DNA from: Sulfurospirillum sp. SCADC
GTDB taxonomy: Bacteria > Campylobacterota > Campylobacteria > Campylobacterales > Sulfurospirillaceae
Reading direction: 5' to 3'
Length of the DNA: 64,000 nt
NCBI RefSeq assembly: GCF_000743525.1
Contig: NZ_JQGK01000017.1
Span: forward strand, 1-64,000
Below, piece after piece: positions 131-63,013 of the stretch. Each line of letters opens with the position of its first letter. The stretch's first letter is position 1. Below the pieces are notes generated by a model that ran no database searches, was not told the origin of the DNA, and saw nothing but the letters and a program-made list of their open reading frames with translations. Both the position numbers and the translations under genes were made by a program.

Positions 131-2995
131 ATGATCAAAAAGTGTCTCAAAAATCTACTGTTCTGGTTGATTTTTCTTCCTTTACTCTACACGTTAAGTG
201 GTTTCGTCATCCTTCCATGGTGGGCACGTACACAACTTCCTAGCCTCATACAAGAGAAATTAGGTCTATCCATTTCGATTGAAAAAGTGTTGTTTAATCC
301 CTTCACCTTTGAGTTACATGTAAACCATTTTGCACTGCACGATACGGCAGGAAACGATGTTGCAACGTTGGAACATCTTTACATCAATTACGATCCAACC
401 TATCTTTTCAAAAAAGAGTTTTTTGTCAAATCACTCCTGCTTGAGCAACCCTTTGTTGACCTTAAAATCGATCCAAAAGGGAATTTGACACTCCTGAGCC
501 TGTTTCCAACAAACCCTTCGAGCGAAAAGAATGCAACCACAGATACGAGCCTAAGCATGCCTTTTATCATCGAACATGTTGACATCCAAAATGCGAAAAC
601 CAACTTTAGTGATGAACGCCCCAGTGAGCCTTTTAAACTCGAAATCGGCCCTATCAATTATGCGGTCAACAATCTTAGTTTTTACAAAGACGATCTAAGT
701 ATTCACGCACTTAAAGTGATGTTGCAAAATGAAGAGAAAATCTCGCTTGCAAGCAGTGCTTCTTTTGATCCACTCAAATTTTATGGTGAACTAAACGTTG
801 CACACCTTCCGCTTTCAAACTTTTGGCGATACGCCCTACCAAGTATGCCAGCAACCCTTACCCAAGGCGAGCTTACCCTTAGAGTTCCTTTTTCCATTGA
901 TTTAAGTAAAGAAAAACCATTGGTCTCTTTAGAAAAAGCCTCCGCTTCTTTAGAGCGTGTTCGCTTAATCGATGATGCAAACAAAACGGTTATTGAAGTA
1001 CCTTCTTTAAGTCTTGCGAATATTGATTTTGACTTGCAGACTTCTACGATTAACATCGAAAAAGCTATGATTACCAAGCCTTTTGTGGACGTCCAATTGG
1101 AAAAAGATTATGCACTAAATTTAGTGCGTCTGTTTACGCCTAAAGGTGCACTAGCGCAGCCAGAAGCACCAACGCCTGCCACGCAAGAGAGTAAAAATGA
1201 GTGGAAATTTGCACTCAAAACGTTCGAAATCCATGAAGCATCTATCGATGTTACCGATAAAAATGTCAAAAGCACGCCTATCCACTTGGCGCCTTTAAAA
1301 TTGACTGCTCAAAACATCACACACGATCAAAACAGCCCTATTAGTTATGATTTTAACAGCACCATAGATTCCACCGCATCTTTAAATGCAAAAGGTATTT
1401 TTATCCCTGCGACGGCTTCGCTTGAGATGGTGATGAATGCCTCTAAACTCTCTTTAGAAAAAGCGCAACCCTACATCACGCTTTTTACAACAACACTTAT
1501 TCAAGACGGTTCCTTATCGCTCACCTCTAAGCTCACCGCTTCGTTTGATCAAAAGCCAATGTTCAAAATCGAAGGAGATGCAACCATCTCGAAATTTTCA
1601 CTTGCGGATAAATTAAAAAACTCACTTGTGGCATGGGAAACGCTTAATGTGAGCAGCATCGCTTACACGCTCTCGCCTGCAACACTTAGCATTCAAAAGA
1701 TCATGCTGGATAAACCGTATATCAATCTTGACATCAAAAAAGATGGCACCACCAATTTTTCCAATCTTTTAAAGACCCCACAAACGCCTGCAAAAACACA
1801 AAAGTCTCAAACGACACAAGATGCGATGTCGATTTATATTGGTGATGTTACGCTTAAGCGAGGAACAACCCATTTTAAAGATGCTTCCTTACTTCTCCCT
1901 TTTGCAACCTTTGCAGATCGCCTCAATGGATCAATGTCAACCCTTGATACCAAAAATACGAAGCCTTCCGTGCTTAAACTCGAAGGAAAAGTCGATAAAT
2001 ATGGCTATGCAAAGATTGATGGATCTGTTTTACCATTTGATTTTAAAAATAGAGCCACGCTTAAAATTCTCTTTAAAAACATCGATATGCCTTCTCTTTC
2101 GCCGTATACGAGCAAATTCATAGGCTATACCATCAAAGAGGGGAAACTCTCTATGGATCTAAATTATAAAATCAAAAAAGGGGTTATGGAAGGTGCCAAT
2201 AAAATCAACCTTGACTCACTACTGTTGGGTGAAAAGATCGAAAGCAAAGATGCAACCAATCTTCCTTTAGGACTTGCCATCGCTATTTTAAAAGATTCCA
2301 AAGGACAAATCGACCTTGACCTTCCCGTCAGTGGCGATCTAAATGACCCTGAATTTCGTTATGGAAGCATTATATGGAAAGCGATTGAAAACCTCATCGG
2401 AAGCATCGCGACCTCTCCATTTAAACTTTTAGGCTCTATACTAGGAATTGAGACAGAAAATCTTAAAAGTATCGATTTTGCGGCGGGTGAATTTGCATTG
2501 ATTGCCTCCGAAGAGGAAAAGATAGAGCAGTATCGTCTGATTTTAGACAAAAGAGCGGAACTCAAGCTTATCATTACGCCAAGCTTCAATGAAACCCTCG
2601 ATACCAAAGCGCTTCAAGAGCAAAATGTTACAGCGCAAATCGAAGCATTGATTCCTAAAAAAAGCAAAGAAGATGATAGTTATGGCAAAGCGATCAAAAA
2701 ACTTTTCCTTCAAAAATACTCAGATGATGCCTACGATCATTTACTGAAAACCTATAAAGAGGAAAATCTAGATATGGGTGCCATTCACGATGCTTTGATC
2801 TCTAAGATTGCAGAAGGTATCACGATTGCACCCGAAGTGCTTCAAAACTTAGCGTTGAAACGCTCCGATACCATCATTCAAACCTTGACGACAAAGTATA
2901 AAATAGCACCTGAAAGATTGATCAAAAATGAGCCTCAAACCAGTGATGCCATTCGTGAAGAGTGGGTGGGATGTCCGATTTCCATCAGTAATTAA
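131..2995 (+). CDS. AsmA-like DUF748 envelope protein
   Basis: A large (954 aa) inner-membrane-anchored periplasmic protein. One hydrophobic segment lies at about residues 10-32, followed by a long beta-rich region with the repeated short blocks typical of DUF748/AsmA-like proteins (phrases such as ASLERVRLID, NKINLDSLLLGEKI and PVSGDLNDPEF near 700-745, the last being the AsmA-type signature). Relatives such as TamB, YhdP and YicH are thought to bridge the periplasm for phospholipid transport or outer-membrane homeostasis; that role is inferred here. The C-terminal 150 residues are charged and helical. The start is supported by a strong AAGGAGG site. A TTACATGTAA palindrome is read as LHV at about residues 62-64. 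The gene ends in a GC-rich hairpin shared with the convergent bcp. Confidence 0.8.
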   Translation: MIKKCLKNLLFWLIFLPLLYTLSGFVILPWWARTQLPSLIQEKLGLSISIEKVLFNPFTFELHVNHFALHDTAGNDVATLEHLYINYDPTYLFKKEFFVKSLLLEQPFVDLKIDPKGNLTLLSLFPTNPSSEKNATTDTSLSMPFIIEHVDIQNAKTNFSDERPSEPFKLEIGPINYAVNNLSFYKDDLSIHALKVMLQNEEKISLASSASFDPLKFYGELNVAHLPLSNFWRYALPSMPATLTQGELTLRVPFSIDLSKEKPLVSLEKASASLERVRLIDDANKTVIEVPSLSLANIDFDLQTSTINIEKAMITKPFVDVQLEKDYALNLVRLFTPKGALAQPEAPTPATQESKNEWKFALKTFEIHEASIDVTDKNVKSTPIHLAPLKLTAQNITHDQNSPISYDFNSTIDSTASLNAKGIFIPATASLEMVMNASKLSLEKAQPYITLFTTTLIQDGSLSLTSKLTASFDQKPMFKIEGDATISKFSLADKLKNSLVAWETLNVSSIAYTLSPATLSIQKIMLDKPYINLDIKKDGTTNFSNLLKTPQTPAKTQKSQTTQDAMSIYIGDVTLKRGTTHFKDASLLLPFATFADRLNGSMSTLDTKNTKPSVLKLEGKVDKYGYAKIDGSVLPFDFKNRATLKILFKNIDMPSLSPYTSKFIGYTIKEGKLSMDLNYKIKKGVMEGANKINLDSLLLGEKIESKDATNLPLGLAIAILKDSKGQIDLDLPVSGDLNDPEFRYGSIIWKAIENLIGSIATSPFKLLGSILGIETENLKSIDFAAGEFALIASEEEKIEQYRLILDKRAELKLIITPSFNETLDTKALQEQNVTAQIEALIPKKSKEDDSYGKAIKKLFLQKYSDDAYDHLLKTYKEENLDMGAIHDALISKIAEGITIAPEVLQNLALKRSDTIIQTLTTKYKIAPERLIKNEPQTSDAIREEWVGCPISISN

Positions 2996-3000
2996 GTGCC

Positions 3001-3030
3001 GTGGGGGGGTTCCATTTTGGAGCCCCCCAC
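3001..3030. terminator. GC-rich hairpin between convergent DUF748 gene and bcp
   Basis: GTGGGGGG pairs with CCCCCCAC around an inner TCCA/TGGA stem and a small T loop. The stem lies 6 bases after the DUF748 stop and 10 bases from the bcp stop, so it can serve both genes. No clear U-tract follows on either strand, so it may act as an mRNA 3'-end stabiliser or a factor-dependent stop. Confidence 0.55.
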
Positions 3031-3039
3031 GCTCCCACG

Positions 3040-3504: not shown

Positions 3505-3535
3505 ATACATTCCTTTATAGATATTTTTCAGCATA

Positions 3536-3673: not shown

Positions 3674-3745
3674 ACTAAAACTATCTTTAATTAATTTTTG
3701 GATACCATAGTAACTCTTTAGAAAAGACTTTTAAGAAGGTAGAAA

Positions 3746-4660: not shown

Positions 4661-4666
4661 ATTTCT

Positions 4667-8578: not shown

Positions 8579-9915
8579 TATTTAATAAAGTAGTTTCCAT
8601 CAAAGCTAACCAGTGAATAGTTCATATCGTTGCCAATACTCTCTTTAAGCGCTTCAATGCTTAAAAAAGCCAATGAATCTGCTTCAATATACTCTCTGAC
8701 CTCTTCAACACTTTTATTGGCACTAATGAGCTCTTTATAGCTTGGGGTATCAATGCCATACAAACACGGATGCTCAATTGTCGGAGCCGCGATACGCATA
8801 TGTACCTCAGCCGCACCTGCACGTTTGAGTAATTTTACAATCTGGCGTGACGTGGTGCCTCTTACGATACTATCATCAATCACAACGATTTTTTTACCTT
8901 CTAAAATTTTATGAATTGGAGAGAGTTTGAGTTTTACTTTGAGATCACGTACAGCTTGGGTTGGCTCAATGAACGTTCTTCCAACGTAATGATTTCGAAC
9001 AATCGCCATTTCAAAAGGAATACCGCTGGCTTGTGCGTATCCTAACGCCGCACTCACGCCACTATCGGGAACAGGGATCACAAAATCAGCTTCTACGGGA
9101 GCCAGTTCTGCGAGCTTCATACCCATTTTTTTGCGTGCTGCATAAACGTTTTTACCTTCAATGACGCTATCAGGACGTGCAAAATAGATAAATTCAAACG
9201 CACAAATGTGTGGATCGGGCTCAAAAAGTTGAATGCTTTCAAAGGTCTCTTTACCTTGCTGGAAAATAACCATCTCACCGGGTCTAACATCTCTTACAAA
9301 CTCCGCATCCACAAGATCAAGCGCACATGTCTCACTTGCAACGATGTAACCACCCTCTTTCATTTTGCCAATGGATAAAGGACGGACACCGTAACGATCA
9401 CGAATTGCAAACATTTTGGATCTACTTTGAATCAAAAGACAATATGCTCCCTTGATTACATGTAACGCTTCAATGATACGATCTTTAAGTTTACCTTGTT
9501 GAGAACGAGCAATGAGATGAATGATATTTTCGGTATCCATCGAAGATTGGAAAATAGCACCTTGCTCTACCAGTTTACTTCGTACTTCATGCTTATTGAT
9601 CAAATTTCCATTATGAACAATCGAAATATCGCCCAGTTTATAACTAGCAGCAACAGGTTGTGCGTCTCTTACAGAGTCACCTCCTGCGGTGGAATAACGG
9701 TTATGACCGATTGCCATATCGCCATGTAGAAACGAGAGTTTCTCTTCGTTAAAGACTTCGGTCACTAATCCATTGTCCTTAATCGTTCGAATTTTCTTGC
9801 CATCACTGGCACTGATTCCTGTTGCTTCTTGCCCACGATGTTGCATCGCGAACAGAGCATAATAGGCTATCTTAGAAGCATGTTTTACATCAAATACACC
9901 AACAATTGCACACAT
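8578..9915 (-). CDS. purF: Amidophosphoribosyltransferase
   Basis: PurF (445 aa) makes 5-phosphoribosylamine from PRPP and glutamine, the committed step of purine synthesis. The N-terminal Ntn glutaminase domain begins MCAIVGVFD, with Cys2 exposed after Met removal as nucleophile; the short form here has no long propeptide. HNRYSTAGG, HNGNL and DTENI follow. The C-terminal phosphoribosyltransferase domain carries KIVVIDDSIVRGTTS around residue 345. Cysteines that could bind a 4Fe-4S cluster (near CAFEF, and CLYG) are present, but the Bacillus pattern is not complete by eye. The gene lies 18 bases downstream of dapB and is coupled to the radical SAM gene. A TTACATGTAA copy at 9456-9465 encodes LHV. 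Confidence 0.96.
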   Translation of the reverse strand: MCAIVGVFDVKHASKIAYYALFAMQHRGQEATGISASDGKKIRTIKDNGLVTEVFNEEKLSFLHGDMAIGHNRYSTAGGDSVRDAQPVAASYKLGDISIVHNGNLINKHEVRSKLVEQGAIFQSSMDTENIIHLIARSQQGKLKDRIIEALHVIKGAYCLLIQSRSKMFAIRDRYGVRPLSIGKMKEGGYIVASETCALDLVDAEFVRDVRPGEMVIFQQGKETFESIQLFEPDPHICAFEFIYFARPDSVIEGKNVYAARKKMGMKLAELAPVEADFVIPVPDSGVSAALGYAQASGIPFEMAIVRNHYVGRTFIEPTQAVRDLKVKLKLSPIHKILEGKKIVVIDDSIVRGTTSRQIVKLLKRAGAAEVHMRIAAPTIEHPCLYGIDTPSYKELISANKSVEEVREYIEADSLAFLSIEALKESIGNDMNYSLVSFDGNYFIK

Positions 9916-12179: not shown

Positions 12180-12506
12180 TTAGTAACTAATATTTTTTAT
12201 TATTTCAATAGTTTCGGGTGTCACCAAAATAGCATCAATTTGATAATCATATGAATTGGGGTGCGTTAGCAAATAATAGTGAATTGTTTTGATGATTTTT
12301 GCCATTTTAGAAGGGGTGATACGCGTAATGGGATCGTATATTTGTGAAAATTTCACTTCGCAAAAATGAAGGGTATTCTCTTTACATGTAATAATATCTA
12401 TCTCGCCAAATTTCGAGTGAAAATTGCGTGCGAGGATCGCATGTCCCTCTTTTTTGAGATAGGAAGAAGCCTTCTCTTCGGCCTCTTTTCCTATCATCAC
12501 ACTCAT
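12180..12506 (-). CDS. YraN/UPF0102 endonuclease-fold protein
   Basis: A 108-aa member of the UPF0102 (YraN) family with a Holliday-junction-resolvase-like, PD-(D/E)XK-type fold. Seen: GKEAEEKASSYL at the N-terminus and the catalytic-type series FGEIDIITCKENTLHFCEVKFS (E, D and ExK), which is cut into two halves by the palindrome copy at 12382-12391 (read as TCK). Family members are linked to DNA processing, but the biological substrate is not established. The stop directly abuts the hom start region: hom ends at 12507 and this gene begins at 12506. Confidence 0.88.
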   Translation of the reverse strand: MSVMIGKEAEEKASSYLKKEGHAILARNFHSKFGEIDIITCKENTLHFCEVKFSQIYDPITRITPSKMAKIIKTIHYYLLTHPNSYDYQIDAILVTPETIEIIKNISY

Positions 12507-15006: not shown

Positions 15007-15822
15007 TCACTCTTTTACATGTAAAGATAATCCATGTTTTATATTCTCAAGCATAAAAGCATCGCCAATCTTCAAATACGTGGCATTGCTAGGAACTTTT
15101 AGCTTCAGCGTTCGTGTCGATTCTTCCGATTTAACATCACTGAGTAGATGCAAATTCTCATCAAAAAAGACAACATCGGGGAACCAACGATCACCTGCGT
15201 GAACCGTTATGGTGACCTCTCTCATATTTTTTACATCAATCCAATAGGGCTTTAAAGGCTTGCCTAAGGGTGTTGTCACACCACTTTCTATCTTTTTGGC
15301 GCCCAGATAAGCGTTGCTTGAATCGATGTCATAAAACCAGTAATGGTCTTCATTTTTTACGATATTCGTTACAGTGCATCCTCTAGCCTCAAGGGCATTC
15401 GCGAAGGCTTCGGGATCAACGATATGCTCGGTTTGAAGGTAAATCTCCCATACAAAACCCGCACTATCGCGCAAGGCATTGTTTGTTAAAAAATAGTTAT
15501 ACCCCATTGCTTCAAGGGATTCATTGACAATTTTGAGAAAAATCAGTGGATCACTGTGCGTACGAAACGCTAAACGTAACTGTACGGGTCTATCATACAA
15601 GAGTTGCAGTAGCCCATTTTTTTTAAGCGTTGAGATTACTTTAACACTGTCCACTTCACCATTGGGTTTAACAAAGGTGCTATTTTGTGCAAAAAGTACT
15701 TGAATAAGATTTTTTTGTGTTTCGTATTTTGAAGCACCCACAAAACTTCGAATCTTCTCTTGAAGGCTCTGCGCTCCAAATAAAGAGAGTGAAAGGATGA
15801 GAATAAGCCATAATTTTTTCAC
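15007..15822 (-). CDS. Periplasmic protein, Cj0151c-like (unknown function)
   Basis: A 271-aa exported protein. A classical signal peptide occupies residues 1-18 (KKLWLILILSLSLFGAQS, with cleavage probably after FGA), and there is no further membrane segment. The rest is a mixed alpha/beta domain ending in a beta-rich region. Position between the aminotransferase and an HTH-membrane protein gene matches the C. jejuni gene Cj0151c. It overlaps the next gene upstream by 4 bases (ATGA type). The last residues, SLHVKE, come from the palindrome copy at 15015-15024, showing that the motif can occupy a protein's C-terminus. Confidence 0.7.
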   Translation of the reverse strand: MKKLWLILILSLSLFGAQSLQEKIRSFVGASKYETQKNLIQVLFAQNSTFVKPNGEVDSVKVISTLKKNGLLQLLYDRPVQLRLAFRTHSDPLIFLKIVNESLEAMGYNYFLTNNALRDSAGFVWEIYLQTEHIVDPEAFANALEARGCTVTNIVKNEDHYWFYDIDSSNAYLGAKKIESGVTTPLGKPLKPYWIDVKNMREVTITVHAGDRWFPDVVFFDENLHLLSDVKSEESTRTLKLKVPSNATYLKIGDAFMLENIKHGLSLHVKE

Positions 15823-17421: not shown

Positions 17422-17512
17422 GGCAATTATTGTATCCAAACTGGCTTAAAATAATACTAGCTTAAATCTAAAATACCTTCTTTAGAAGTTTACATGTAAC
17501 AAAATAGGGACA
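17422..17512. other. Short gap between rsmI and rlmB with a palindrome copy
   Basis: The gap holds the palindrome TTACATGTAA at 17490-17499 and a small CTTC-TTTA-GAAG hairpin (17478-17489) directly next to it. No promoter is obvious. Confidence 0.4.
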
Positions 17513-18635: not shown

Positions 18636-19304
18636 TCATGCCAATATTTTGGAAGCCGCAGCCACCACAGCCGTCTCACTTCGTAAAATAGTCTTACATG
18701 TAAGACCCACAATCGGCTGATTTTGAAGCACGATTCGCTCTTTTGGACTAAATCCACCCTCTGGTCCAATCAAAATTGAACTAACGGCTTCATCACCACG
18801 TAATTGGACCTCTGAAAAGTCCAAGACATGACTTTTCGGATACGCATCTAAGTAGGTTTGAAGCGAAGCAAACACTTCGATCTGCATTAGCAGACTTCGT
18901 CCACACTGTTGGGAAGAGTTAATCAAAATGCGCTTCATGCGCTCCAAATCGAGCTTATGCCCTTTTTGTGAAAATTCGGCATAGACAAAACTGATCTTAG
19001 AAACACCGAGTTCATTGAGCATCGGAAGTGTCTTTTCAATGATCTTAGGATCGATGATACTCCAGCCTACATGTAAAACGTTTGAAGGCACTAGGAGCAA
19101 CTCTTTTTGGGAAACCAATGCTAGTTCAGCCTCTTTTTTACCAATCTGGGTAATTTCATACGCATAGATAAAAGCATCTTCCAAATTACGCCAAAAAAGC
19201 TTCTCCCCCACACTGATGCGACGCACTTTAAAAAGATGTTCGTACTCTCTCGTATCTACTTTAAGGATTGGCTCACCGGCACTGGGATGATAGACAAATT
19301 GCAT
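18636..19304 (-). CDS. rsmE: 16S rRNA (uracil(1498)-N3)-methyltransferase
   Basis: RsmE (222 aa), a SPOUT methyltransferase acting on U1498 of 16S rRNA. The N-terminal PUA-like domain (EYEHLFKVRRISVGEKLFWR) is followed by the catalytic domain with SQQCGRS, ILIGPEGGFSPKE near 178 and the C-terminal ILRSETAVVAA knot motif. The start abuts the stop of the upstream membrane-protein gene without a gap. The palindrome at 18694-18703 encodes LTCKT. Confidence 0.95.
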   Translation of the reverse strand: MQFVYHPSAGEPILKVDTREYEHLFKVRRISVGEKLFWRNLEDAFIYAYEITQIGKKEAELALVSQKELLLVPSNVLHVGWSIIDPKIIEKTLPMLNELGVSKISFVYAEFSQKGHKLDLERMKRILINSSQQCGRSLLMQIEVFASLQTYLDAYPKSHVLDFSEVQLRGDEAVSSILIGPEGGFSPKERIVLQNQPIVGLTCKTILRSETAVVAAASKILA

Positions 19305-19961: not shown

Positions 19962-21116
19962 ATGCCTATTTCGTACCAAGAAGCGCTTCAGATTATTCAA
20001 ACACAAATTCAACCTTTACATGTAAACCAAACATTGCCTCTTTTAAAAGCGATCAACCGCATTTCCAGTAGCGATGTTTACGCCAAATTTGCGTTACCGA
20101 AACATCCGATGAGCCTGAAAGAAGGCTATGGTATTGCGTTTGAGCCAAGTACCCTTACCTACACACTTTTAAATCCACCCTATCCTACGCCCATCCCGTT
20201 GGGGTACGGTGTTAGGCTTTCCACGGGGGAGAGTATTCCCGAAGGTGCCGATACGATTATTGCCGAAGAAGATGTCCTTTTTGAGCACAATGAGTGCATC
20301 AAAATTCCTTTACATGTAAGCCAATCTCAGCACATTAAAAAAGAGGGAGAAGACATTGCTAAAGGCGAATTACTGCTGAAAAAATATGAGCGTATCAGTG
20401 CGCAAAAAATCACAGCCCTCGCAGCCCAAGGCATTACTAAAGTCCAAGCGGTACAAAAACCGATGGTAAGTATTTTAAGCATTGGCTCCCAACTCGCCTC
20501 GGGTGAAATCCACAACTCAAACGCAATGAGTTTAGCCGCACGGGTCGTCGAATTGGGGGGAAACGTCGGTGAGATTGTGATTTGCGAAGAGGATGACGCT
20601 CAGATTTTAAAGACATTGCAGACACTCGTAACCAAAGCAGATTGCGTTATTACAACGGGAGCACTGAGTCGTCACGATGCGATGCGTCGCCTCTTAGAGA
20701 CTCAAACACTTATTCCTCTGTTTCACCAAGTCCGCATTACACCTGCCAAACCCAGTGCGCTGACGCTTTTTGAAAACACGCCTATTTTACACCTTCCAGG
20801 ACTCCCACTGGGGTGCATGTTGGGGTTTGAAATGCTGGGCGTTCCACTACTTCGGCACCTGCAACATCGACCTTGCATTATTCCTAATTTCATTACCTGC
20901 ATCAACCAAAAACGCCTTACATGTAAAGATAATTCGATGAGTGCCATTCCGGGCTACAGCGATGGAAGACATTTTGTATGCGCGCCCTATTACGAGGCAG
21001 GGCGACTTAATATCCTCAGCCAATGCAATGGTTATACCTTAAGCGAAGGCAAAGAGAGCATCGAAGAAGGCGAAGAGATCTCCTTCTTCTATTTTACTCA
21101 TCCACCCGTTTCGTAA
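19962..21116 (+). CDS. Divergent MoeA-family molybdopterin molybdenumtransferase
   Basis: A 384-aa protein with the overall MoeA layout: N-terminal linker, beta domain (50-145), MogA-like domain (165-300) and C-terminal barrel (305-384). MoeA inserts molybdenum into molybdopterin. Several canonical motifs are altered: the MDGYA loop reads LKEGYGI, STGDEL reads SIGSQLASG, GGVSVGxxD reads GALSRHDAM, and KPGKP reads TPAKP, while [16 protein letters not shown] and LPGLPLG are retained. It may be a specialised or weakened paralogue. Three palindrome copies (20016, 20310 and 20917) lie inside it. Its 3' end overlaps moaA (opposite strand) by 19 bases. Confidence 0.8.
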
Positions 21117-26223: not shown

Positions 26224-27120
26224 TTGAAAACCATCGCTATTTTAGGACCTACTGCTTCAGGTAAAACAGCTCTTTCCATTGAATTGGCACTGAAGTATAA
26301 CGCATATAGTGTATCGCTTGATTCACTGAGCATTTATAAAGAGATTGACATTGCTTCTGCGAAACCCTCTCTTGCGGAGCGCCAAGGGGTAAAGCATTTT
26401 GGGATGGATATTCTTTTGCCCAGCGAGCATTTTGATGTCACGATGTTTTTTGAGCTCTTCCAAGACGCTAAAGAGGAAGCCTTGCGTGAGGGGAAACATC
26501 TGATCATCGTAGGAGGAACAGGTTTTTACCTCAAAGCGATGATGGAAGGACTGAGTATCAAGCCTGAAATATCTTTACATGTAAAAGAGAAAATCGATCA
26601 TCTCTTGATGGATTTAGAAGCATCGTATGCGCTTATACGCGCGCACGATGAGGCATTTGCGCGCAAAATTGCGTCCAATGATCGTTACCGCATCGAGAAA
26701 TGGTTGGAGATCTTTTTGACAACAGGTGAAATCCCCTCAGCCTATCTTTTACATGCCAAGCAAGCGCCTCTCATTAAAGAGATTGCCCTGTTTGAAATCG
26801 ATACGCCACGAGAAATTCTTGCGCAAAGAATTGCACTGCGCACGCAGAACATGCTCACACAAGGGCTGGTGGATGAAGTCTTTGGGTTGGAAAAACGGTA
26901 CAGCAGAGCACCGCAGTGTATGAAAGCGATTGGCATCAAAGAGGTGTTGGAGTATTTCGATGGGAAACTTACGTTTAATGAACTGGCTGAGCGCATTAGC
27001 TTGAATACAATTCATTTAGCCAAACGTCAACGCACTTTCAATGCTTCGCAATTTCCACCGCATCCCAAAGGTGATCTGAAGGATATTTTTGACGCCATTG
27101 AAACGCATTTTAAATCTTAA
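26224..27120 (+). CDS. miaA: tRNA dimethylallyltransferase
   Basis: MiaA (298 aa) prenylates A37 of tRNAs reading UNN codons. The N-terminal P-loop GPTASGKTALS, DSLSIYKEIDIASAKPS, VGGTGFYLKA and the C-terminal KRQRTFNASQF region are all present. The start codon is TTG (26224), weakly supported by AAGAG about 8 bases upstream; there is no ATG that would keep the P-loop, so the TTG is needed. A low-efficiency start may limit expression. The palindrome at 26575-26584 encodes SLHVKE. Confidence 0.95.
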   Translation: MKTIAILGPTASGKTALSIELALKYNAYSVSLDSLSIYKEIDIASAKPSLAERQGVKHFGMDILLPSEHFDVTMFFELFQDAKEEALREGKHLIIVGGTGFYLKAMMEGLSIKPEISLHVKEKIDHLLMDLEASYALIRAHDEAFARKIASNDRYRIEKWLEIFLTTGEIPSAYLLHAKQAPLIKEIALFEIDTPREILAQRIALRTQNMLTQGLVDEVFGLEKRYSRAPQCMKAIGIKEVLEYFDGKLTFNELAERISLNTIHLAKRQRTFNASQFPPHPKGDLKDIFDAIETHFKS

Positions 27121-40833: not shown

Positions 40834-41672
40834 TGCTCTGCCTTCACTATTTTTACTACATGGTAGGGATAGCTCGAATCCGCTTTCGCACAGGGCATTA
40901 AAGCGATCACGCCTTTTAAACTATCGTCGCGAACAAAGGTACGCGGATAGACCTCTTGGTTGATAGCAACCGTGATTTTGTCGTTGTTTTGCACTTTGGC
41001 TGCCATTTGAAACTGAGCGGAACCTATAAGCAGATGCTCTTCATCCACTCGTGTTACAGGGCATTGATAGACCACAACCCCGTCAAAACTTTTTAGATTT
41101 TCAACCGCGTTTAAAACGCTCTCATTTTGTGATGAGACAATCATTTCAGGTGTGCTACCCACAACAAGCAATTTTGCTTTGCCAAACTTTGCGATCAATC
41201 CTGCAAGATGTGCAATAGAAGCAGCTTGTGGATGACGGATCAGATCATCTCCTAAAACAATCAGCACACGGTGAGCTTCTTGATACAACGCTTCAATCTC
41301 TTCGATCTCTTCTTCGCCTAGATTGCTCTCCGCACTGATGTAACCCTCATCGAGTTCTTCAAAATAGTTTTGAACAGTTTCAGGAAGCTTTACATGTAAA
41401 AGAAAACTTTTGGCAAGAAGCGCCAATACACCCTCTTCGGCACCGACTTCGTAACGGCTAAAAAATGTACTTTTTTCAACCAAAGCAGGATCTTCCATCG
41501 TAAAGAGATAGACCACTTTAGCTGTACTCGCACTCACCTTTTCTAAAAGTGTTGTGTCATGGCGCGAAGGCAGTGTTCCCACGCAAATCATAAGATCAAA
41601 TCCTTTACATGTAAACGCAAAAGAGTCATTACTTGACTGATTTAAGGCTTCTATAAATTGCTTTTTGACCAT
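40830..41672 (-). CDS. Complex I accessory subunit replacing NuoF (Cj1574c/HP1265-like)
   Basis: A 280-aa protein at the nuoF position, but without the NuoF FMN- or NADH-binding motifs and without its 4Fe-4S Cys set. The sequence has a loose alpha/beta look (VLIVLGDDLIRHPQAASI, AKLLVVGSTPEM) resembling part of the NuoG domain that follows. In C. jejuni the counterpart Cj1574c is needed for flavodoxin-driven electron entry into complex I, so NADH is probably not the donor here. Two palindrome copies (41390 and 41605) lie in it. It overlaps nuoG by 4 bases. Confidence 0.85.
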   Translation of the reverse strand: MVKKQFIEALNQSSNDSFAFTCKGFDLMICVGTLPSRHDTTLLEKVSASTAKVVYLFTMEDPALVEKSTFFSRYEVGAEEGVLALLAKSFLLHVKLPETVQNYFEELDEGYISAESNLGEEEIEEIEALYQEAHRVLIVLGDDLIRHPQAASIAHLAGLIAKFGKAKLLVVGSTPEMIVSSQNESVLNAVENLKSFDGVVVYQCPVTRVDEEHLLIGSAQFQMAAKVQNNDKITVAINQEVYPRTFVRDDSLKGVIALMPCAKADSSYPYHVVKIVKAEQ

Positions 41673-44871: not shown

Positions 44872-44918
44872 CTGAGTGCTTTACATGTAAGCACTCAGAA
44901 AGGCTTGCTTAAGCCTTT
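44872..44918. terminator. Double hairpin upstream of nuoA
   Basis: AAAGGCTT-GCTT-AAGCCTTT (44899-44918) overlaps the stop codon of the AAA ATPase gene. Next to it CTGAGTGC and GCACTCAG (44872-44879 and 44891-44898) flank a TTACATGTAA palindrome, making a nested stem. The pair separates the ATPase gene from the nuo promoter. Confidence 0.6.
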
Positions 44919-46754: not shown

Positions 46755-48323
46755 CTATCTTTTACGTAAAATTCCACCATTTTTAACATTTTCCTTTAAA
46801 ACTCGCTTTAGAACCTTACCCGTTGCATTCTTAGGAAGCTCTTCAACAAAGTAAATATGCTTCGGTAGCTTAAAATTTGCCACATGTTGCTTAAGGTAAG
46901 CGCGTAATTCACTTTCTTGAAGTTCCACACCCTCTTGGAGTTGAATAAAGGCCAAAACCTCTTCATCGTTGGTCTGTTCATTTCTGAGTCCGATAACCGC
47001 AACGGCATCAACACCTTCGTATTTGTAGATAACTTCTTCGATTTCTCTAGGATAAATGTTAATTCCTTTAGAGATAATCAGATCTTTTTTACGATCCACA
47101 ATATAAATAAAGCCATCGCCATCTTTTTTACCCAAATCACCACTCAAAAGCCAGCCATTGATGATGGTCTCATCGGTCGCATCAGCATGATTAAGGTAGC
47201 CTTGCATCACGCAATCGCCTTTCACCATAATTTCACCCACTTCGCCCGTTTTGACCTCAACACGCTCTTCATTGACGATTTTCACTTCGTAACTGGGGAG
47301 CGGTAAGCCAACAGAGAGCGGTTTTTGATGATCCAGTCGGTTCACACACACCGCAGGTGAGCACTCACTGAGTCCATAACCTTCTAAAAGCGTCGCTTTT
47401 TTAAACTTGGCATTAAAATCATTCAAGGATTGCTCACTGAGTGGCGCACTGCCTGAGATAAAAATACGCACTTGATTGAACCACATAAAATACCATGGAA
47501 TTTTTGCTTTTAAAAGCGCGTTGTACAAGGTTGGAACACCCAGAAAAATGGTCACACGTTTAAGCAGGGTCTGTTTAAGCACATTCGCAAAAGGAAAAAC
47601 CGAGCGCACAATGACAATGCTCGAACAGGTAAAGAGAGGCAAAAGCACCATAATGGAGAGTGTAAAGCTGTGAAACATCGGTAAAAAAACGATGAAACGA
47701 TCTTTACATGTAATGTGAAATGATTCGGCTCCGGAGATCGCATTGGAGAAAATATTGCGATACGAGAGCATGGCACCTTTGGGTTTTCCCGTCGTGCCAG
47801 AGGTGTAAACGATACACGCCAAATCATTTAATGTTGGTTTGTTGGCGACGTCACCATTCCGATCTACGCTTGCATCAATTTCGCTAAAGCTGTAATTGCG
47901 TTCATCCAAATGCGGATAATCATCGCACCAAATGATCTTTTCAATCTTGGTCGTATCCAGTAAGTTTTTGGTCTCATTGGCAAATGAGGCGGAGCAGACG
48001 AGCATTTTGGCACTGCAATCATTCAAAATATACTCAAACTCCTCTTTTTTCAAAAAGGTATTCAGAGGTACGGCAATCGCTCCAATCTTCGTAATCGCAA
48101 ACAAAGAGACAATAAACTCCACCGAGTTGCCGACAATCATGGCAACCCGATCCCCACTTTTGATACTGCTAAATTCCAAGAAACGCGCAAACGTATCGAT
48201 GTGATGCTTGAGCTTCACATACGATACTTTATGATCATCCATAAAAATAGCCGTTTTTTTAGGATCATTTTTAGCATTCGCTTCCATGATCTCATAAAAA
48301 TTTTGATACGGATAGATGAGCAT
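46755..48323 (-). CDS. Acyl-CoA synthetase (AMP-forming, FadD-like)
   Basis: An ANL-superfamily adenylating enzyme (522 aa). The P-loop YTSGTTGKPKGAMLSYRN (about 173-190), the LEGYGLSECSPAV motif (about 310), SGDLGKKDGDGFIYIVDR (about 392) and the C-terminal catalytic Lys in KNATGKVLKRVL are all present. It probably activates medium- or long-chain fatty acids. The gene lies 2 bases after a FadL-type porin gene, which supports fatty-acid uptake. The palindrome at 47704-47713 encodes ITCKD. Confidence 0.9.
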   Translation of the reverse strand: MLIYPYQNFYEIMEANAKNDPKKTAIFMDDHKVSYVKLKHHIDTFARFLEFSSIKSGDRVAMIVGNSVEFIVSLFAITKIGAIAVPLNTFLKKEEFEYILNDCSAKMLVCSASFANETKNLLDTTKIEKIIWCDDYPHLDERNYSFSEIDASVDRNGDVANKPTLNDLACIVYTSGTTGKPKGAMLSYRNIFSNAISGAESFHITCKDRFIVFLPMFHSFTLSIMVLLPLFTCSSIVIVRSVFPFANVLKQTLLKRVTIFLGVPTLYNALLKAKIPWYFMWFNQVRIFISGSAPLSEQSLNDFNAKFKKATLLEGYGLSECSPAVCVNRLDHQKPLSVGLPLPSYEVKIVNEERVEVKTGEVGEIMVKGDCVMQGYLNHADATDETIINGWLLSGDLGKKDGDGFIYIVDRKKDLIISKGINIYPREIEEVIYKYEGVDAVAVIGLRNEQTNDEEVLAFIQLQEGVELQESELRAYLKQHVANFKLPKHIYFVEELPKNATGKVLKRVLKENVKNGGILRKR

Positions 48324-50418: not shown

Positions 50419-50910
50419 TTATGGCAATGGTTTGAGACGTATTAAAATACCGTTTTTGGTATCTCTAAAGCTAAGGGTTTGCCCTTTTATTGTGTAGATA
50501 AGATGGCTGTTGGAAAACTCCAAATCTTGTTCAAATCCTTGAGGAGTTCTACGAAGGTTTTTACCATCATAAAGAGGATGCCACAGGAGAATATCGTACA
50601 TTAAGTCTGCGTAATGTTCCTCTTGAAAAAACTGCTGATTAAAGGCAAGCTTATCCAAACATCGCCCATCTAAACAGACATAATTTCCTATAATTTCAAG
50701 ATTGAAAAGCACATTGCCCGCAGAGAAAATCTGCACATTTGCATAATTTTCTCCTTTGTTAATAAAGCCTGTATCGGAAAGTGCGATCTGTTTGTTTTTA
50801 ATCGTAATCGCATACGCTTCAGAAGTCGTAATCGTCTTTTTTACGGCACACCCACTTAAAAAGAGCATGGCTAAAAAGCTTACATGTAAAAGTTTTTTCA
50901 CGAATGACAC
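50419..50910 (-). CDS. Predicted lipoprotein of unknown function
   Basis: A 163-aa lipoprotein: signal sequence with lipobox LFLSGC, so Cys21 would be lipidated. The mature part is a small beta-rich domain; two Cys close together ([11 protein letters not shown], about 78-86) could form a disulfide. I do not recognise a family. Its start overlaps the end of the Fur-family gene by 13 bases, so translation is coupled to the regulator; a role in metal or envelope stress is a guess from context only. The palindrome at 50880-50889 encodes LHV in the signal peptide. Confidence 0.7.
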
Positions 50911-51345: not shown

Positions 51346-51400
51346 CACAACTAAGTTGCATTGGATTAAGATTGCATCCAAATTATGCAACTAAGTCGCA
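51346..51400. promoter_or_regulatory. Two palindromic operator candidates between the Fur-family gene and znuA
   Basis: CACAACTAAGTTGCA (51346-51360) and TGCAACTAAGTCGCA (51386-51400) are near-perfect copies of the palindrome TGCAACT-A-AGTTGCA, centred 40 bp apart. The second overlaps the likely znuA transcription start (AATTAT at 51381-51386 is a possible -10 box) and ends 11 bases before the chosen znuA ATG. Between them lies a TTGGAT/ATCCAA inverted repeat (51361-51381). This is the arrangement expected for a metal-dependent repressor acting on znuACB and perhaps on its own gene. Confidence 0.6.
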
Positions 51401-51411
51401 AAGGAAACAGC

Positions 51412-52305
51412 ATGAAATACATTTTTCTTCTCTTTACCCTTCTCTTTGGTTCACTCTTAAGTGCCGCTCAGACCGTCACGGTCAGCATTTTGCCTCAAAA
51501 ATATTTTGTGGAACAGATTGCAAAAGATTTTTTACATGTAAACGTTATGGTAACACCAGGATCAAGCCCTCATACGTATGAGCCTAAACCTTCACAAATG
51601 AAAGAGCTTGCCAGCTCAGATGCTTACTTTAGCATCGGCGATGGGTTTGAAAAAGCGTGGCTTCCTAAGTTTCAAAGCACCAATCCTAAAATGCTGATGG
51701 TCGATACGATTAAAGGGATTGATAAAATTGCAATGGCAGAACATCATCACGATGACGAAGAAAAATCCGATTCTAAAAAAGAGGCGCATCACGATCACGA
51801 GCATCAGCATGAAGCAGGTGAACTTGATCCACATGTTTGGCTAGATCCTATTTTGGTCAAAACTCAGGCTAAAAATATTTATGAAGCCCTTGTCAGCCTT
51901 TATCCTGAACACAAAAATGAATTCACACACAATTACGACGCATTTATTGCCTCGTTGGATGCACTTGATGCGACACTTCGAAGTACCCTAAGCGAGGTCA
52001 AAAATCGTAAATTTATCGTTTTCCACCCTTCCTTTGGCTATTTTGCTAAGCGCTATGATTTAGAGCAAATCGCCATCGAAGTACATGGGAAAGAGCCAAA
52101 AGCGAGTGAACTTGCCCATTTGATTGAAGAGGCAAAAGAGGAGAATGTTAAAGTTGTTTTTGTCGCACCACAATTCTCACAAAAAAGTGCCCAAACGATT
52201 GCCAAACAAATCAATGGAAAAACACTCACCATTGATCCACTCTCCGATAAATGGAGTGAAAATCTTTTAAGCATCGCAAAAATCTTTCAATCAGAACTAA
52301 AATGA
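51412..52305 (+). CDS. znuA: Zinc ABC transporter substrate-binding protein
   Basis: Periplasmic zinc-binding protein (297 aa) of the cluster A-I metal family. A signal peptide (1-19, ending LLSAAQ) is followed by HTYEPKPSQMKELASSD, a His/Asp/Glu-rich loop (about 108-140, with EHHHDDEEKS and HHDHEHQHEAG) typical of ZnuA, and DPHVWLDP with the metal-binding His, then HPSFGYFAKRY. I start at the ATG at 51412, with AAAGGA 6 bases upstream; an upstream in-frame ATG at 51385 falls in the operator. The palindrome at 51532-51541 encodes LHV. Confidence 0.95.
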   Translation: MKYIFLLFTLLFGSLLSAAQTVTVSILPQKYFVEQIAKDFLHVNVMVTPGSSPHTYEPKPSQMKELASSDAYFSIGDGFEKAWLPKFQSTNPKMLMVDTIKGIDKIAMAEHHHDDEEKSDSKKEAHHDHEHQHEAGELDPHVWLDPILVKTQAKNIYEALVSLYPEHKNEFTHNYDAFIASLDALDATLRSTLSEVKNRKFIVFHPSFGYFAKRYDLEQIAIEVHGKEPKASELAHLIEEAKEENVKVVFVAPQFSQKSAQTIAKQINGKTLTIDPLSDKWSENLLSIAKIFQSELK

Positions 52306-52317: not shown

Positions 52318-53079
52318 ATGCAAAACGATATTCAGATCAATCACCTCTATTTTAGTTATGATGGCGCTACCGTACTGGAGGACATTAACCTCCAGTACAA
52401 CACGAGCGAATTTTTAGCCATTATTGGGCCCAACGGTGGCGGTAAAAGCACCCTCTTAAAAATGATGATCGGCTTGCTTGAGCCTGAACGTGGCGAAGTG
52501 CTACTTTTTGGTGAAAAACCTTTACATGTAAGCCATGAAATTGCCTATGTTCCCCAAGACACCATCGCCAATAAAGACTTTCCCATCAAAGTGATGGACG
52601 TCGTGCTGATGGGCAGACTCTCAAAGTCTAAAGCCTTTGCCACCTATTCAAAAGAAGATCGCGCGATTGCGCTCTCTATGCTTGAAAAAGTGGGGATGCA
52701 AGGCTTTGAAAATCAAAAGATCAACACGCTCTCAGGCGGACAGCGCCAACGCGTTTTCATCGCCCGTGCTCTGGCGTGTGAAGCCAAAATTATGTTTTTG
52801 GATGAACCAACTGCCAGCATCGACACTGCAGGACAGATCAGTATGTTTAAACTGCTTAAATCGCTCAATGAAACAGTCGGCATCGTCATCATTAGCCACG
52901 ACATCAATGTAGCGCTCAATTACGCCACCAAAGTTGTCCATATCAACAAAACGCTCTTCGTCCACGATGTACCTAAAACTCAAAATTTTAAAGTCTTTGA
53001 AAATCAAAACGAACACGTCTGCCCTGTTGAGCTCATCAGCGCAACCCGTTGCAATCACTTCCCCAAAGAGCTTGCATGA
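52318..53079 (+). CDS. znuC: Zinc ABC transporter ATP-binding protein
   Basis: ABC ATPase (253 aa) energising zinc import. Walker A GPNGGGKSTLLKMM, Q-loop YVPQDT, signature LSGGQRQRVFIARAL, Walker B IMFLDEPTAS and H-loop IISHDI are all intact. It lies 12 bases after znuA and overlaps znuB by 4 bases. The C-terminal tail contains Cys and His (ATRCNHF), as in many ZnuC proteins. The palindrome at 52522-52531 encodes PLHVS. Confidence 0.95.
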   Translation: MQNDIQINHLYFSYDGATVLEDINLQYNTSEFLAIIGPNGGGKSTLLKMMIGLLEPERGEVLLFGEKPLHVSHEIAYVPQDTIANKDFPIKVMDVVLMGRLSKSKAFATYSKEDRAIALSMLEKVGMQGFENQKINTLSGGQRQRVFIARALACEAKIMFLDEPTASIDTAGQISMFKLLKSLNETVGIVIISHDINVALNYATKVVHINKTLFVHDVPKTQNFKVFENQNEHVCPVELISATRCNHFPKELA

Positions 53080-55335: not shown

Positions 55336-55458
55336 CGTTTACGCACTCTACAATGCCTTGTTGAGGTGAAAAAGTCTCCCTAAATTCTTATAATCTCAAG
55401 GATTTTTGCACTTTTTTACATGTAAGAACTCCTTTATCTTACTTTTATATTCTACTGC
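55336..55458. other. Intergenic region after cytochrome c
   Basis: No ORF or RNA gene is recognised. It contains a palindrome copy TTACATGTAA (55416-55425) after a T-run, possibly part of the cytochrome c 3' end. It leads into the promoter of the ABC transporter operon. Confidence 0.4.
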
Positions 55459-60317: not shown

Positions 60318-60882
60318 TAATCTCTTCGCTGCTGCTCCAAAGGCGCTCGTGAATCATCTCTTTGGTCACCACGTTTCCACGCTCTTTGACAAGTAAGTAG
60401 AGTAGTTCAAAATCTTTGAGGTTAATATCAAGCTCCTCTTTATTGTAAAAAAGACGCTTACGGGCAAGATTGAGTTTATACGCTTCATCGATGCTTAGCC
60501 AATCATCCACAATCCCTTTTGCACGCGCAAGCAATGCTTTAATGCGAAGCAATACCTCTTCCAAATCAAACGGTTTTTTGATGTAGTCATCCCCACCTAA
60601 CATAAAACCTTTTGCAAGGCTCTCTTGATCATTCAGCGATGTGACAAAAATAGCAGGGGTTCGATCGCCTGCCGCACGGAGCTCTTTTAAAAAGTCAAAG
60701 CCATTCATATCCGGCACTTTGACATCTAAAAGATAGAGATCAAATTTATGTTCATAACACTGCTTCAGCGCTTCTTTCCCACTTTTCACCAACGTACATT
60801 CATATCCATGCCCACTCAAAAAATCTTCGAGCGTTTGAAGCAGTAGCGTGTTATCTTCTAGAATGAGAATTTTATAGGACAT
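60217..60882 (-). CDS. OmpR-family response regulator
   Basis: A 221-aa regulator: receiver domain (1-120) with acidic pocket ILEDN, phosphoacceptor D53 in YLLDVKVPD, Thr in FVTSLND and Lys in YIKKPF; winged-helix DNA-binding domain (125-221) with DLKDFELLYLLV, EMIHERLW and RVYINNLKKIFG. I use the ATG at 60882 with GGAG 8 bases upstream, rather than a GTG three codons earlier. The start lies inside the pyrC 3' end. It acts with the kinase encoded next to it. Confidence 0.93.
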   Translation of the reverse strand: MSYKILILEDNTLLLQTLEDFLSGHGYECTLVKSGKEALKQCYEHKFDLYLLDVKVPDMNGFDFLKELRAAGDRTPAIFVTSLNDQESLAKGFMLGGDDYIKKPFDLEEVLLRIKALLARAKGIVDDWLSIDEAYKLNLARKRLFYNKEELDINLKDFELLYLLVKERGNVVTKEMIHERLWSSSEEINEGSIRVYINNLKKIFGKEVIVNIRGIGYRFEK

Positions 60883-61879
60883 GTGTGACACTCCAAGCTA
60901 ATGTTTCGTTTGCAAACATAGGAACAACGTCACCATAACTGTGTGTGACTACAAAAGGTATTTTTTCTAAAATAACCTCTTTATAGGGGGCTTTATAGTT
61001 ATAAATGGTTTGTGCATTGTTACTCACAAACGCTTGCAGGTTTGCTAAAGCGTTATGTTTGTCAAAGAGTTCGACCAAAGCCTGCAGCGCGATGGGTGCT
61101 GTAAAAACACCTGCTGCACATCCACAGCACTCTTTCTTATGAACCGGATGCGGCGCAGAATCAGAGCCAAACATCACTTTAGGATGGGCTTTAAGGCTTA
61201 CATGTAAAAGCGCGTCTCTGTCTTCATAACGCTTCGCAATCGGTTTACAAAACAGATGCGGTTGCAACATGCCGCCAGCCACATCATCTAATGTGATTAA
61301 AAGATGATGGAGCGTAATCGTGGCATAAAGATTTTCGTATTTGTCCAAAAGTGCCACACTCTCTTTGATCGTAATGTGCTCCATCACAATTTTGAGTTTA
61401 GGAAAAGCCATTGCTAGACTTTCATAGATGGAGCCAAACTCTTTTTCGCGGTCCATTACAAACCCATTGGTTTCTCCGTGTACGCATAAAATGAGTCCCA
61501 AATCACTCATCGCTTCCAATACAGGACGCAAAACGTCGATGTCCATGCTTGCCACACCGCCCTCAGAATTGGTCGTAATCCCTGAAGGATAGAGCTTCAA
61601 CGCTTTTACATGTAACGCTGCTTTTTCTAAAAATTCGCGCGTATAATCTGAGCGAAAAAAAAGTGTCATCAAAGGCTCAAACACATTGTTACCAATGGCA
61701 CTCATAATGCGCTTTTTATAGGCAATGACTGACTCAATGGTCGTAATAGGAGGAACAACATTGGGCATAATGATACCGCCCACAAAGCTGTGCGCACTCA
61801 AAGATGCCACCACCTTTAGCATCGCTTCATCACGTAAATGCAGGTGCATATCAAGAGGAGAGATCAGAGTGTGGGTCAT
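60872..61879 (-). CDS. pyrC: Dihydroorotase
   Basis: Class II PyrC (335 aa), the zinc amidohydrolase of pyrimidine synthesis. Metal ligands are visible: HLHLRD near residue 12, the carbamylated Lys in KALKLYPSGITTNS, His in LCVHGET and MEHI, and Asp in GSDSAPHP. Two palindrome copies (61198 and 61606) encode LHV. The 3' end overlaps the response regulator start by 11 bases. Confidence 0.95.
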   Translation of the reverse strand: MTHTLISPLDMHLHLRDEAMLKVVASLSAHSFVGGIIMPNVVPPITTIESVIAYKKRIMSAIGNNVFEPLMTLFFRSDYTREFLEKAALHVKALKLYPSGITTNSEGGVASMDIDVLRPVLEAMSDLGLILCVHGETNGFVMDREKEFGSIYESLAMAFPKLKIVMEHITIKESVALLDKYENLYATITLHHLLITLDDVAGGMLQPHLFCKPIAKRYEDRDALLHVSLKAHPKVMFGSDSAPHPVHKKECCGCAAGVFTAPIALQALVELFDKHNALANLQAFVSNNAQTIYNYKAPYKEVILEKIPFVVTHSYGDVVPMFANETLAWSVTHVL

Positions 61880-61959
61880 TAGAGATGCCTTTTTGGTTTT
61901 AATTATATCAAAGCAAGCCCAAAATGTTATACTTCCATCAAAAATGATAAGGCATACCT

Positions 61960-62979
61960 ATGGAATATCGTTACATTGGGAAAAGTGGTCTACGCGTAAC
62001 ACCTATTTGTATGGGAACGATGAGTTTTGGTAGCTGGAGCGATAAAGCTGAATCCTTCAAAATTTTGGATACGGCATACGATCGGGGCATTAATTTTTTT
62101 GATACCGCGGAAGTGTATCCGGTTCCTCCACGTGGTGACTATGCTGGAGAGACTGAGAAAATCATTTCTGAGTGGCTTGCGACCAAACCACGTGAAAGCA
62201 TCATCTTAGCCACGAAAATAGCAGGTGCTGCAAACGGCTGGTTTGTGCCACCCATTCGTTATGGACTCACCGCAATTGATCGTTTTCACATTCAACGCGC
62301 TGTGGAAGGAAGTTTAAAACGTCTCAAAATAGACTATATCGACCTTTACCAAGTGCATTGGCCCGATGAGCTCGTTCCCAAAGAAGAGTCGATGCGAGCA
62401 CTCGACGAACTGGTTAAAAGCGGAAAAGTACGCTACCTCGGCACCTCCAATGACTCAGCGTATGGACTCACCAAATCAAACACGATTGCTCAGTATGAAA
62501 AACTCGCTCGCTTTGAGTCGATCCAAAACAACTTCTCACTGCTCAATCCACGCTTTTTGGATGAACTTTCCAACATCTGCCGTAAAGAAAATGTCTCACT
62601 GCTTCCTTACTCACCAATGGCAGGCGGTGTTTTGAGTGGTAAATACAACCAAGCCTTCATCGACCCCAAAAGTCGTTTTGGTGAGTACCTTCAAGCAGGA
62701 GAACCCAGACAAAAAGCGATGTACAAACGTTTTGTCAATGAAAAATCACTCGTAGCAACCGCTAAGTACATTGAAATTGCCAAACAATACAGCATGAGCC
62801 CGGTTACACTCGCCGTTGCATGGAGCATGCACTTTGATTTTGTCGCCTCCACCATCATCGGAGCACGTTACGCCACACAACTTGAAGAGAGTTTTAAAGC
62901 GCTTGAACTCAAGCTCACACCTGAGATTTTAAACGAATGTGAAAAAGTGCAAAAAGAGATTTTATACCCGATGGGGTGA
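61960..62979 (+). CDS. Aldo/keto reductase
   Basis: A 339-aa NADPH-dependent aldo/keto reductase of the Tas/YajO type. Catalytic tetrad: Asp and Tyr in FFDTAEVYPVP, Lys in ILATKI and His in YQVHWPDE. LGTSNDSAYG, IQNNFSLLNPR and IIGARYATQLEES bind the cofactor. It lies in a divergent position to pyrC, with about 80 bases between them. It ends in a hairpin made from two palindrome copies. Confidence 0.93.
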   Translation: MEYRYIGKSGLRVTPICMGTMSFGSWSDKAESFKILDTAYDRGINFFDTAEVYPVPPRGDYAGETEKIISEWLATKPRESIILATKIAGAANGWFVPPIRYGLTAIDRFHIQRAVEGSLKRLKIDYIDLYQVHWPDELVPKEESMRALDELVKSGKVRYLGTSNDSAYGLTKSNTIAQYEKLARFESIQNNFSLLNPRFLDELSNICRKENVSLLPYSPMAGGVLSGKYNQAFIDPKSRFGEYLQAGEPRQKAMYKRFVNEKSLVATAKYIEIAKQYSMSPVTLAVAWSMHFDFVASTIIGARYATQLEESFKALELKLTPEILNECEKVQKEILYPMG

Positions 62980-62980
62980 G

Positions 62981-63013
62981 TTTACATGTAAGGTTTTCAG
63001 CCTTACATGTAAA
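62981..63013. terminator. Terminator-like stem built from two palindrome copies
   Basis: TTTACATGTAAGG and CCTTACATGTAAA form a perfect 13-bp stem with a 7-base TTTTCAG loop, right after the aldo/keto reductase stop and 6 bases from the amt stop. A short A/T tract follows on the plus strand. The two TTACATGTAA copies are at 62982-62991 and 63003-63012. Either half can also fold on itself. Confidence 0.75.

Follow-up and report, generated by a model that had tools for sequence, protein, structure and literature searches.

What does a 10-bp palindrome that recurs throughout a 64-kb stretch of the Sulfurospirillum sp. SCADC genome do there? The stretch analysed here (the window) comprises the 64,000 nucleotides at positions 1 to 64,000 of contig NZ_JQGK01000017.1, and it contains 27 exact copies of TTACATGTAA, compared to a mean of 0.13 and a maximum of 1 in 100 dinucleotide shuffles. 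An earlier note, made from this sequence alone, had listed these copies, all of which are found where it placed them, and had proposed an undescribed uptake, methylation or chromosome-organising signal. We put at about even odds the reading that TTACATGTAA, with its 8-mer core TACATGTA, is an uptake sequence comparable to the uptake signal sequence (USS) of Pasteurellaceae and the DNA uptake sequence (DUS) of Neisseria, but one that is palindromic, symmetrically phased with the DNA helix and probably marked by methylation.

The over-representation seen in the window extends to the whole genome and beyond it, so that both refuting conditions named in the earlier note (no genome-wide excess, or presence in this window only) are excluded as far as these counts reach. 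The source genome (G000; 2.66 Mb in 38 contigs) holds 1,309 copies compared to 1 for the reversed-pattern control, and an order-3 Markov model predicts 0.31 copies in a 264-kb sample where 121 are observed. All 24 genomes of the genus that were searched carry TTACATGTAA, with 49 (G009, the lowest count) to 1,496 copies each. Among 298 genomes of the order, those with more than 15 copies all belong to the source's family (f1), apart from five of family f17. Enrichment of the core TACATGTA extends to some members of each of the five f1 genera sampled: the core exceeds 1,000 copies in 17 of 25 f1 genomes outside genus g2, numbers 28-491 in the four sampled g2 genomes and 99-848 in these five f17 genomes, and reaches at most 61 elsewhere, with reversed controls at 0-74. 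A literature search by title and abstract found nothing treating TTACATGTAA as an iterated signal. Two further occurrences stand out: G194 of family f17 (L268-L270) has the highest density of ACATGT among the sampled genomes, 983 per Mb, with looser flanks, and the viral contig IMGVR_UViG_3300044699_000025 (L224, L230) carries a row of TACATGTA copies spaced 13 and 26 bp apart.

Comparison with relatives reveals that the copies are conserved in place. The window was aligned to each genome, and sites without aligned sequence were dropped, 3-5 of 27 for close genomes and as many as 13 for distant genomes. Letter-identical sites number 22 of 23 in G006 and 23 of 24 in G007, where the identical fraction of background 10-mers is.41 and.42, and 18 of 23 in G001, 19 of 23 in G002 and 16 of 22 in G003, with backgrounds of.18,.11 and.10; the binomial p is at most 5e-8 in all five. 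G002 thus keeps its 19 sites at about 77% identity to G000 and an 11% background. The remaining genomes retain 10/16 (G013), 9/22 (G017), 6/22 (G014), 5/20 (G021), 2/22 (G010), 1/14 (G022) and 0/23 (G009). G001 and G009 are similarly distant from G000 (82.6% and 80.9% identity), yet the former has kept 18 of 23 sites and the latter none, indicating a genuine constraint, though one that a lineage can lose. With G001 as the reference, G009 retains 0 of 24 sites and G017 8 of 25. The comparison with related genomes suggested in the earlier note therefore finds sites kept above background in close kin and lost in G009.

The copies are also unusually exact. Perfect copies outnumber those with one deviation by 121 to 33 (one-off copies expected, 10) in the 264-kb sample of G000 and by 197 to 37 (expected, 17.5) in 400 kb of the complete chromosome of G003. 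The one-off surplus lies mainly at the outermost base, while the three inner bases of each half stay close to background. Directly outside TTACATGTAA, position +1 favours A and position +2 is almost devoid of T; past the first flanking bases, the 27 contexts of the window appear unrelated when compared by eye. Some lineages have their own form of the motif, T(T/G)ACATGTAA in G010 and G014 and (T/C)TACATGTA(A/G) in G266, and six of the eight G014 sites that are changed in G010 carry the same T-to-G substitution at position 2 or its mirror. With open reading frames (ORFs) of at least 90 amino acids, 14 window copies are read as LHV, 8 as xTCx, none as Tyr-Met-stop, and 5 are intergenic, in agreement with the earlier note. 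The avoidance of the third frame holds in the window but is not absolute in the larger samples, where Tyr-Met-stop is scarce and present, at 4 of 91 coding sites in G000 and 2 of 143 in G003.

Around these sites the base composition follows the helix. At 629 TACATGTA sites from nine genomes, A/T content oscillates in step with the helical turn. In a set of 536 sites from 12 genomes, the period is 11.2 bp with zero phase at the dyad, and the amplitude is 0.057 compared to 0.006 in weak/strong-matched controls; past 20 bp, the amplitude is still 0.049 compared to 0.004-0.007 in the controls. Of these 536 sites, 135 found no partner in the flank-matched control and were dropped from that comparison. 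In five genomes, the amplitude declines from 0.087 near the core to 0.036±0.006 at 66-78 bp; it is visible beyond 78 bp as well, a range for which there is no matched control. By codon position, the amplitude is 0.098±0.005 at third, 0.050 at first and 0.028 at second positions, and 0.037 outside ORFs, so the DNA has been shaped more than the protein. In single genomes with at least 50 flanks, it lies between 0.025 and 0.076 at TACATGTA in 13 of 14, the remaining one being G144 (0.016±0.011); phasing is not established in G122 and G144. Other ACATGT sites of the same genomes show no significant phasing, except in G010 (0.016±0.007). The control palindromes AATATT (0.018) and TTTAAA (0.0085) are slightly phased too, which counts against the phasing, since some of the amplitude at the motif may be common to AT-rich palindromes in general. 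The spacing between sites is only weakly phased at 11.2 bp (79 pairs, Rayleigh p 0.016 with eleven periods tried), and we rejected it as a feature.

The phasing appears to follow the fate of the sites. At lost sites, it is lower than in the genome that retains them in all 20 comparisons, which overlap (for G009, 0.080 falls to 0.039), while at kept G000 sites it changes from 0.077-0.079 to 0.060-0.068 in G001, G002 and G003. We regard this fall as suggestive: the direction is consistent in G009 and G017, with each difference modest relative to its standard errors, and in other genomes, where the sets of lost sites are small (4-9), a fall is not evident.

Along the chromosome the motif is spread evenly. 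In 18 of 20 stretches of 20 kb from G003 there are 8-14 copies of TTACATGTAA, and the density is flat through the region where GC skew switches sign. The remaining two stretches have 5 copies and 1; the latter, at 33.7% G+C, contains two IS21-type gene pairs, SIR2 and AbiEii. The plasmid pSDCE1 (39.9 kb) has 4 sites where about 17 are expected at 436 per Mb, and 200 kb sampled from pSulSP has 29 where about 87 are expected at that density, a comparison in which the count includes a duplicated region and 436 per Mb may not be the density of the host chromosome. TTACATGTAA is thus rare in the acquired DNA sampled, namely one island stretch and two plasmids. The duplicated annotated region of pSulSP, at 56-97 kb and 102-143 kb (L285, L286), is a reductive dehalogenase/cobamide region in two copies.

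Called ORFs hold 73 to 75% of the sampled copies, and the intergenic excess noticed in the window recurs on the larger scale: 30 of 121 sites lie in the 5.9% of the G000 sample without a called ORF (binomial p 1e-11), and 54 of 197 in the corresponding 8.1% of the G003 sample (p 9e-16). Seven of the eight intergenic pairs less than 60 bp apart in these two samples, that is, the pair 62982/63003 of the window and six of the seven others, form a single hairpin joining both copies. The likeness to uptake sequences drawn earlier from density and paired hairpins holds in these samples. Clusters also occur within genes, with five copies in a mutY-like gene of G003 (L178:10108-11061), at spacings that recur in similar form among the sites listed for G001 and G002, and three each in a photolyase gene and a priA-like gene; over-dispersion across 652 ORFs is slight, and a bias to repair genes was set aside as a hint only.

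A partner methylase had been suggested, and much of the genus does encode a D12 N6-adenine methyltransferase (PF02086, E 5.7e-41) between the same neighbours and, from loci read by eye, solitary. Association was examined in 19 genus genomes at least 90% complete, excluding the less complete G012, G015, G018, G019 and G020. Twelve have an enzyme with 57% or more identity to the G000 one, and in these TTACATGTAA reaches 362-512 per Mb, compared to 19-389 in the remaining seven. In six of these seven, G009, G017, G021, G022, G010 and G014, the gene is missing from its usual place, which measures about 420-515 bp instead of about 1,310-1,350; G010 and G014 encode a copy with 51% identity at another location, and the usual place was not located in G013. 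In trees, G009 and G017 group with the gene-bearing G001 (FastTree pairs G001 with G017, IQ-TREE leaves the three unresolved), so two losses of the enzyme are likely. In family f17, four of the five genomes that bear the motif have a homologue (E <1e-100), as do 2 of the remaining 23 (p 0.003, kinship ignored). The suggestion thus stands as far as density in the genus is concerned and is qualified by exceptions in both directions, taken up below, which led us to reject the enzyme as the sole cause of the motif.

As to the enzyme's target, some of its phage relatives bear the name 'ulcer associated adenine specific DNA methyltransferase', which is that of the H. pylori CATG enzyme; the present enzyme may have a CATG specificity. 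Solved structures gave no match at E 1 or better, and the NCBIfam match yields no target specificity. All 29 genomes of family f11, presumably Campylobacteraceae, are hit by the enzyme's profile A1, mostly at E 1e-44 to 1e-57. The EcoRI-type methyltransferase PF13651, considered as a counterpart of the Campylobacter enzyme CtsM, was uninformative (26 of 298 genomes of the order, 3 of 29 of f1). Several observations concern the enzyme's surroundings. In G000:C5 (L091:210-6436), Cas9-like, Cas1 and Cas2 genes directly adjoin the methyltransferase gene, and the other genus loci compared differ there. The S. diekertiae plasmid pSDCE1 (L198:1692-2732, 20494-21355) has a second methyltransferase gene of this kind, with 4 TACATGTA inside and adjoining IS21 genes, and a cluster of 5 TACATGTA at its lexA-like gene. 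G059 of genus g2 (L110, L281-L283) has kept the enzyme at only 70 ACATGT per Mb; there ATCATGAT is in excess (20 vs 6.2), perhaps as another CATG-centred palindrome.

The resemblance to known uptake sequences is broad. H. influenzae has 1,465 USS cores and N. meningitidis 1,892 DUS (PMC7811141), and a surplus of perfect copies is described as a puzzling trait of both, unlike regulatory sites (PMC1626085). With the USS, as it is portrayed in these sources, TTACATGTAA shares its density, the preponderance of perfect over one-off copies, clade variants, hairpin pairs and helically spaced AT flanks: the two AT segments of the USS lie about 12 positions from each other (PMC1626085), and their rigid, bent shape correlates with uptake (PMC7811141). 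With the DUS, which is reported to be more conserved than its surroundings (PMC2397512), it shares iteration, such conservation in place and the rarity in recently acquired genes that the sources describe. The hallmarks of USS and DUS sampled here (density, excess of perfect copies, conservation, scarcity in acquired DNA, hairpins and variants) all appear to be present, and it is from these that we infer an overall function in uptake. The palindrome, the long symmetric phasing and the methyltransferase are new compared to USS and DUS. The earlier statement that Campylobacter has no known uptake sequence needs correction, since C. jejuni is reported to require methylated RAATTY made by CtsM (PMC10046745, PMC8468864); the lineage here is moreover Sulfurospirillum, neither Campylobacter nor Helicobacter. 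The RAATTY enzyme, like that described here in the same order, is a D12 N6-adenine methyltransferase (PMC4294202). RAATTY, however, is a hexamer that occurs commonly, at 28,058 places in one strain, whereas TTACATGTAA is an iterated 10-mer and rare; the present enzyme could itself have a RAATTY-like target.

If TTACATGTAA is an uptake sequence, a putative competence receptor at the cell surface would recognise the copies dispersed along the chromosome and so favour the uptake of DNA from close kin over that of foreign DNA. The receptor might grip the palindrome as a symmetric site within about 160 bp of phased DNA, whose A/T flanks would curve it and help a bent loop to enter the uptake pore. 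The D12 methyltransferase would likely mark self copies at a target inside the palindrome, perhaps CATG, much as CtsM does at RAATTY. Biased uptake and recombination would keep the copies perfect and in position, and copies would decay after a lineage abandons the signal.

Several observations weigh against this reading. The USS is asymmetric with one-sided AT segments, whereas TTACATGTAA is a palindrome with symmetric phasing over at least 78 bp per side, more than the 31 bp of the USS, and the DUS, as described in the sources cited, is neither palindromic nor accompanied by a flanking motif. The core motif occurs in G013, G098, G144, G266 and G224 although they lack close homologues of the methyltransferase, and an unrelated enzyme with its specificity might act there instead; G059, G295 and G289 have a homologue and only 28, 104 and 165 cores; and many motif-free families hold strong homologues. 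ComEC, the sole competence gene sought, is present in 41 of 44 genomes of the family, at high and low motif densities alike, leaving its loss unsupported as the cause of motif loss. The reservations on the pSulSP count belong here as well.

The chief rival, which we consider possible but clearly less probable, is a chromosome-organising site: the palindrome would be bound by DNA gyrase or by a nucleoid protein acting as a dimer, and at least 160 bp of phased DNA would be wrapped around the protein or bent by it. Its best argument is the length of the phasing, together with the symmetric 11.2-bp oscillation, its zero phase at the dyad, its strength at third codon positions and the lack of significant phasing at other ACATGT sites outside G010; a period above 10.5 bp would also fit a right-handed path. 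E. coli gyrase sites are likewise periodic and symmetric in composition about their centre, with a 130-bp motif, 10.75-bp G/C periodicity and enrichment downstream of highly transcribed operons according to PMC6379681. The gyrase motif differs, however, in its period, in flanks that stop near 66 bp where the present signal decays smoothly and extends further, and in its other, degenerate centre bases; the preferences -4G, -2A and +1G given in PMC12324340 are not those of TTACATGTAA, and gyrase as the reader was rejected on centre letters and phasing extent. Against wrapping in general, the density is flat where GC skew changes sign, the relative G009 lives with 49 copies, and a binding site would less readily be expected to show lineage variants and almost no copies decayed in the inner bases. 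Were it nonetheless true, wrapping would set supercoiling or the folding of the nucleoid at intervals of about 2 kb. Each copy might then, again tentatively, be the dyad of a wrapping unit of at least about 160 bp, some 1,300 per chromosome, in a nucleosome-like positioning code written largely in synonymous codons and read by some protein, perhaps with methylation of the centre as a switch.

Less probable still is a palindrome of the cyanobacterial HIP1 type, kept by its own methyltransferase (methyl-directed repair being one conceivable route) and involved in neither uptake nor wrapping. The two motifs are both iterated palindromes associated with an orphan methyltransferase and deviating at their outermost bases, and the internal CATG of TTACATGTAA and the enzyme's correlation with density in the genus and with presence of the motif in f17 fit such an origin. 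HIP1 is GC-rich, however, and its flanks are unphased in the sites tested: in 200 kb of Synechocystis plasmids (222 flanks), the amplitude is -0.005±0.006 at 11.2 bp and 0.007 at the best period, compared to 0.06±0.005 for the present motif, which makes HIP1 a poorer parallel than had been proposed and weakens membership in its class. Motif without close enzyme homologue, and enzyme without motif, speak against it too. An ordinary regulator's operator, a mobile repeat or a composition artefact, to which the terminator-like hairpins of some copies might point, is highly improbable given the location of most copies in ORFs, their unrelated contexts and counts that contradict it in both the reversed control and the Markov model. 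Taken together, each part of the initial proposal has gained some support: uptake from shared hallmarks, methylation from the association within the genus, and chromosome organisation from helical flanks resembling those of DNA-wrapping sites.

Table. Exact copies of TTACATGTAA in the window, with reading frame and, where given, the relatives in which the site is letter-identical.
Position	Location	Frame	Relatives and remarks
314..323	ORF 131-2995 (AsmA/DUF748 protein)	LHV	identical in G002, G003; other ten without aligned sequence
9456..9465	ORF 8578-9915	LHV	identical in G006, G007, G002
12382..12391	ORF 12180-12506	xTCx	identical in G006, G007
15015..15024	ORF 15007-15822	LHV	identical in G006, G007, G001, G002, G003, G017, G013
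17490..17499	intergenic		identical in G006, G007, G001, G002, G003, G021, G022
18694..18703	ORF 18636-19304	xTCx	identical in G006, G007, G001, G002, G003, G013
20016..20025	moeA-like ORF 19962-21116	LHV	
20310..20319	moeA-like ORF 19962-21116	LHV	
20917..20926	moeA-like ORF 19962-21116	xTCx	
26575..26584	ORF 26224-27120	LHV	
30855..30864	ORF 28567-30963	LHV	
35700..35709	ORF 34027-35883	LHV	
38675..38684	ORF 38356-40833 (Fer2 + NADH-G_4Fe-4S domains)	xTCx	
38711..38720	ORF 38356-40833	xTCx	36 bp after copy at 38675
39938..39947	ORF 38356-40833	xTCx	
41390..41399	ORF 40830-41672	LHV	
41605..41614	ORF 40830-41672	xTCx	
44881..44890	intergenic		
47704..47713	ORF 46755-48323	xTCx	
50880..50889	ORF 50419-50910	LHV	
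51532..51541	ORF 51385-52305	LHV	
52522..52531	ORF 52318-53079	LHV	
55416..55425	intergenic		identical in G007; other eleven without aligned sequence
61198..61207	ORF 60872-61879	LHV	
61606..61615	ORF 60872-61879	LHV	
62982..62991	intergenic, between converging aldo/keto reductase 61960-62979 (+) and ORF 63020-64000 (-)		left arm of hairpin pair
63003..63012	intergenic		right arm of hairpin pair with copy at 62982; -18.1 kcal/mol, z -4.5, terminator-like

If TTACATGTAA is an uptake sequence, the order of Campylobacter and Helicobacter would contain an iterated uptake signal that is palindromic and apparently coupled to a methyltransferase, and the relatives that have lost both enzyme and motif would make the question of drive versus selection directly testable. 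If it is instead a wrapping site, selection at the DNA level would act on codon choice over the 160 bp of each of 1,309 copies, about 8% of the chromosome in all. Under either reading, the phased flanks quantitatively separate TTACATGTAA from the HIP1 sites tested.

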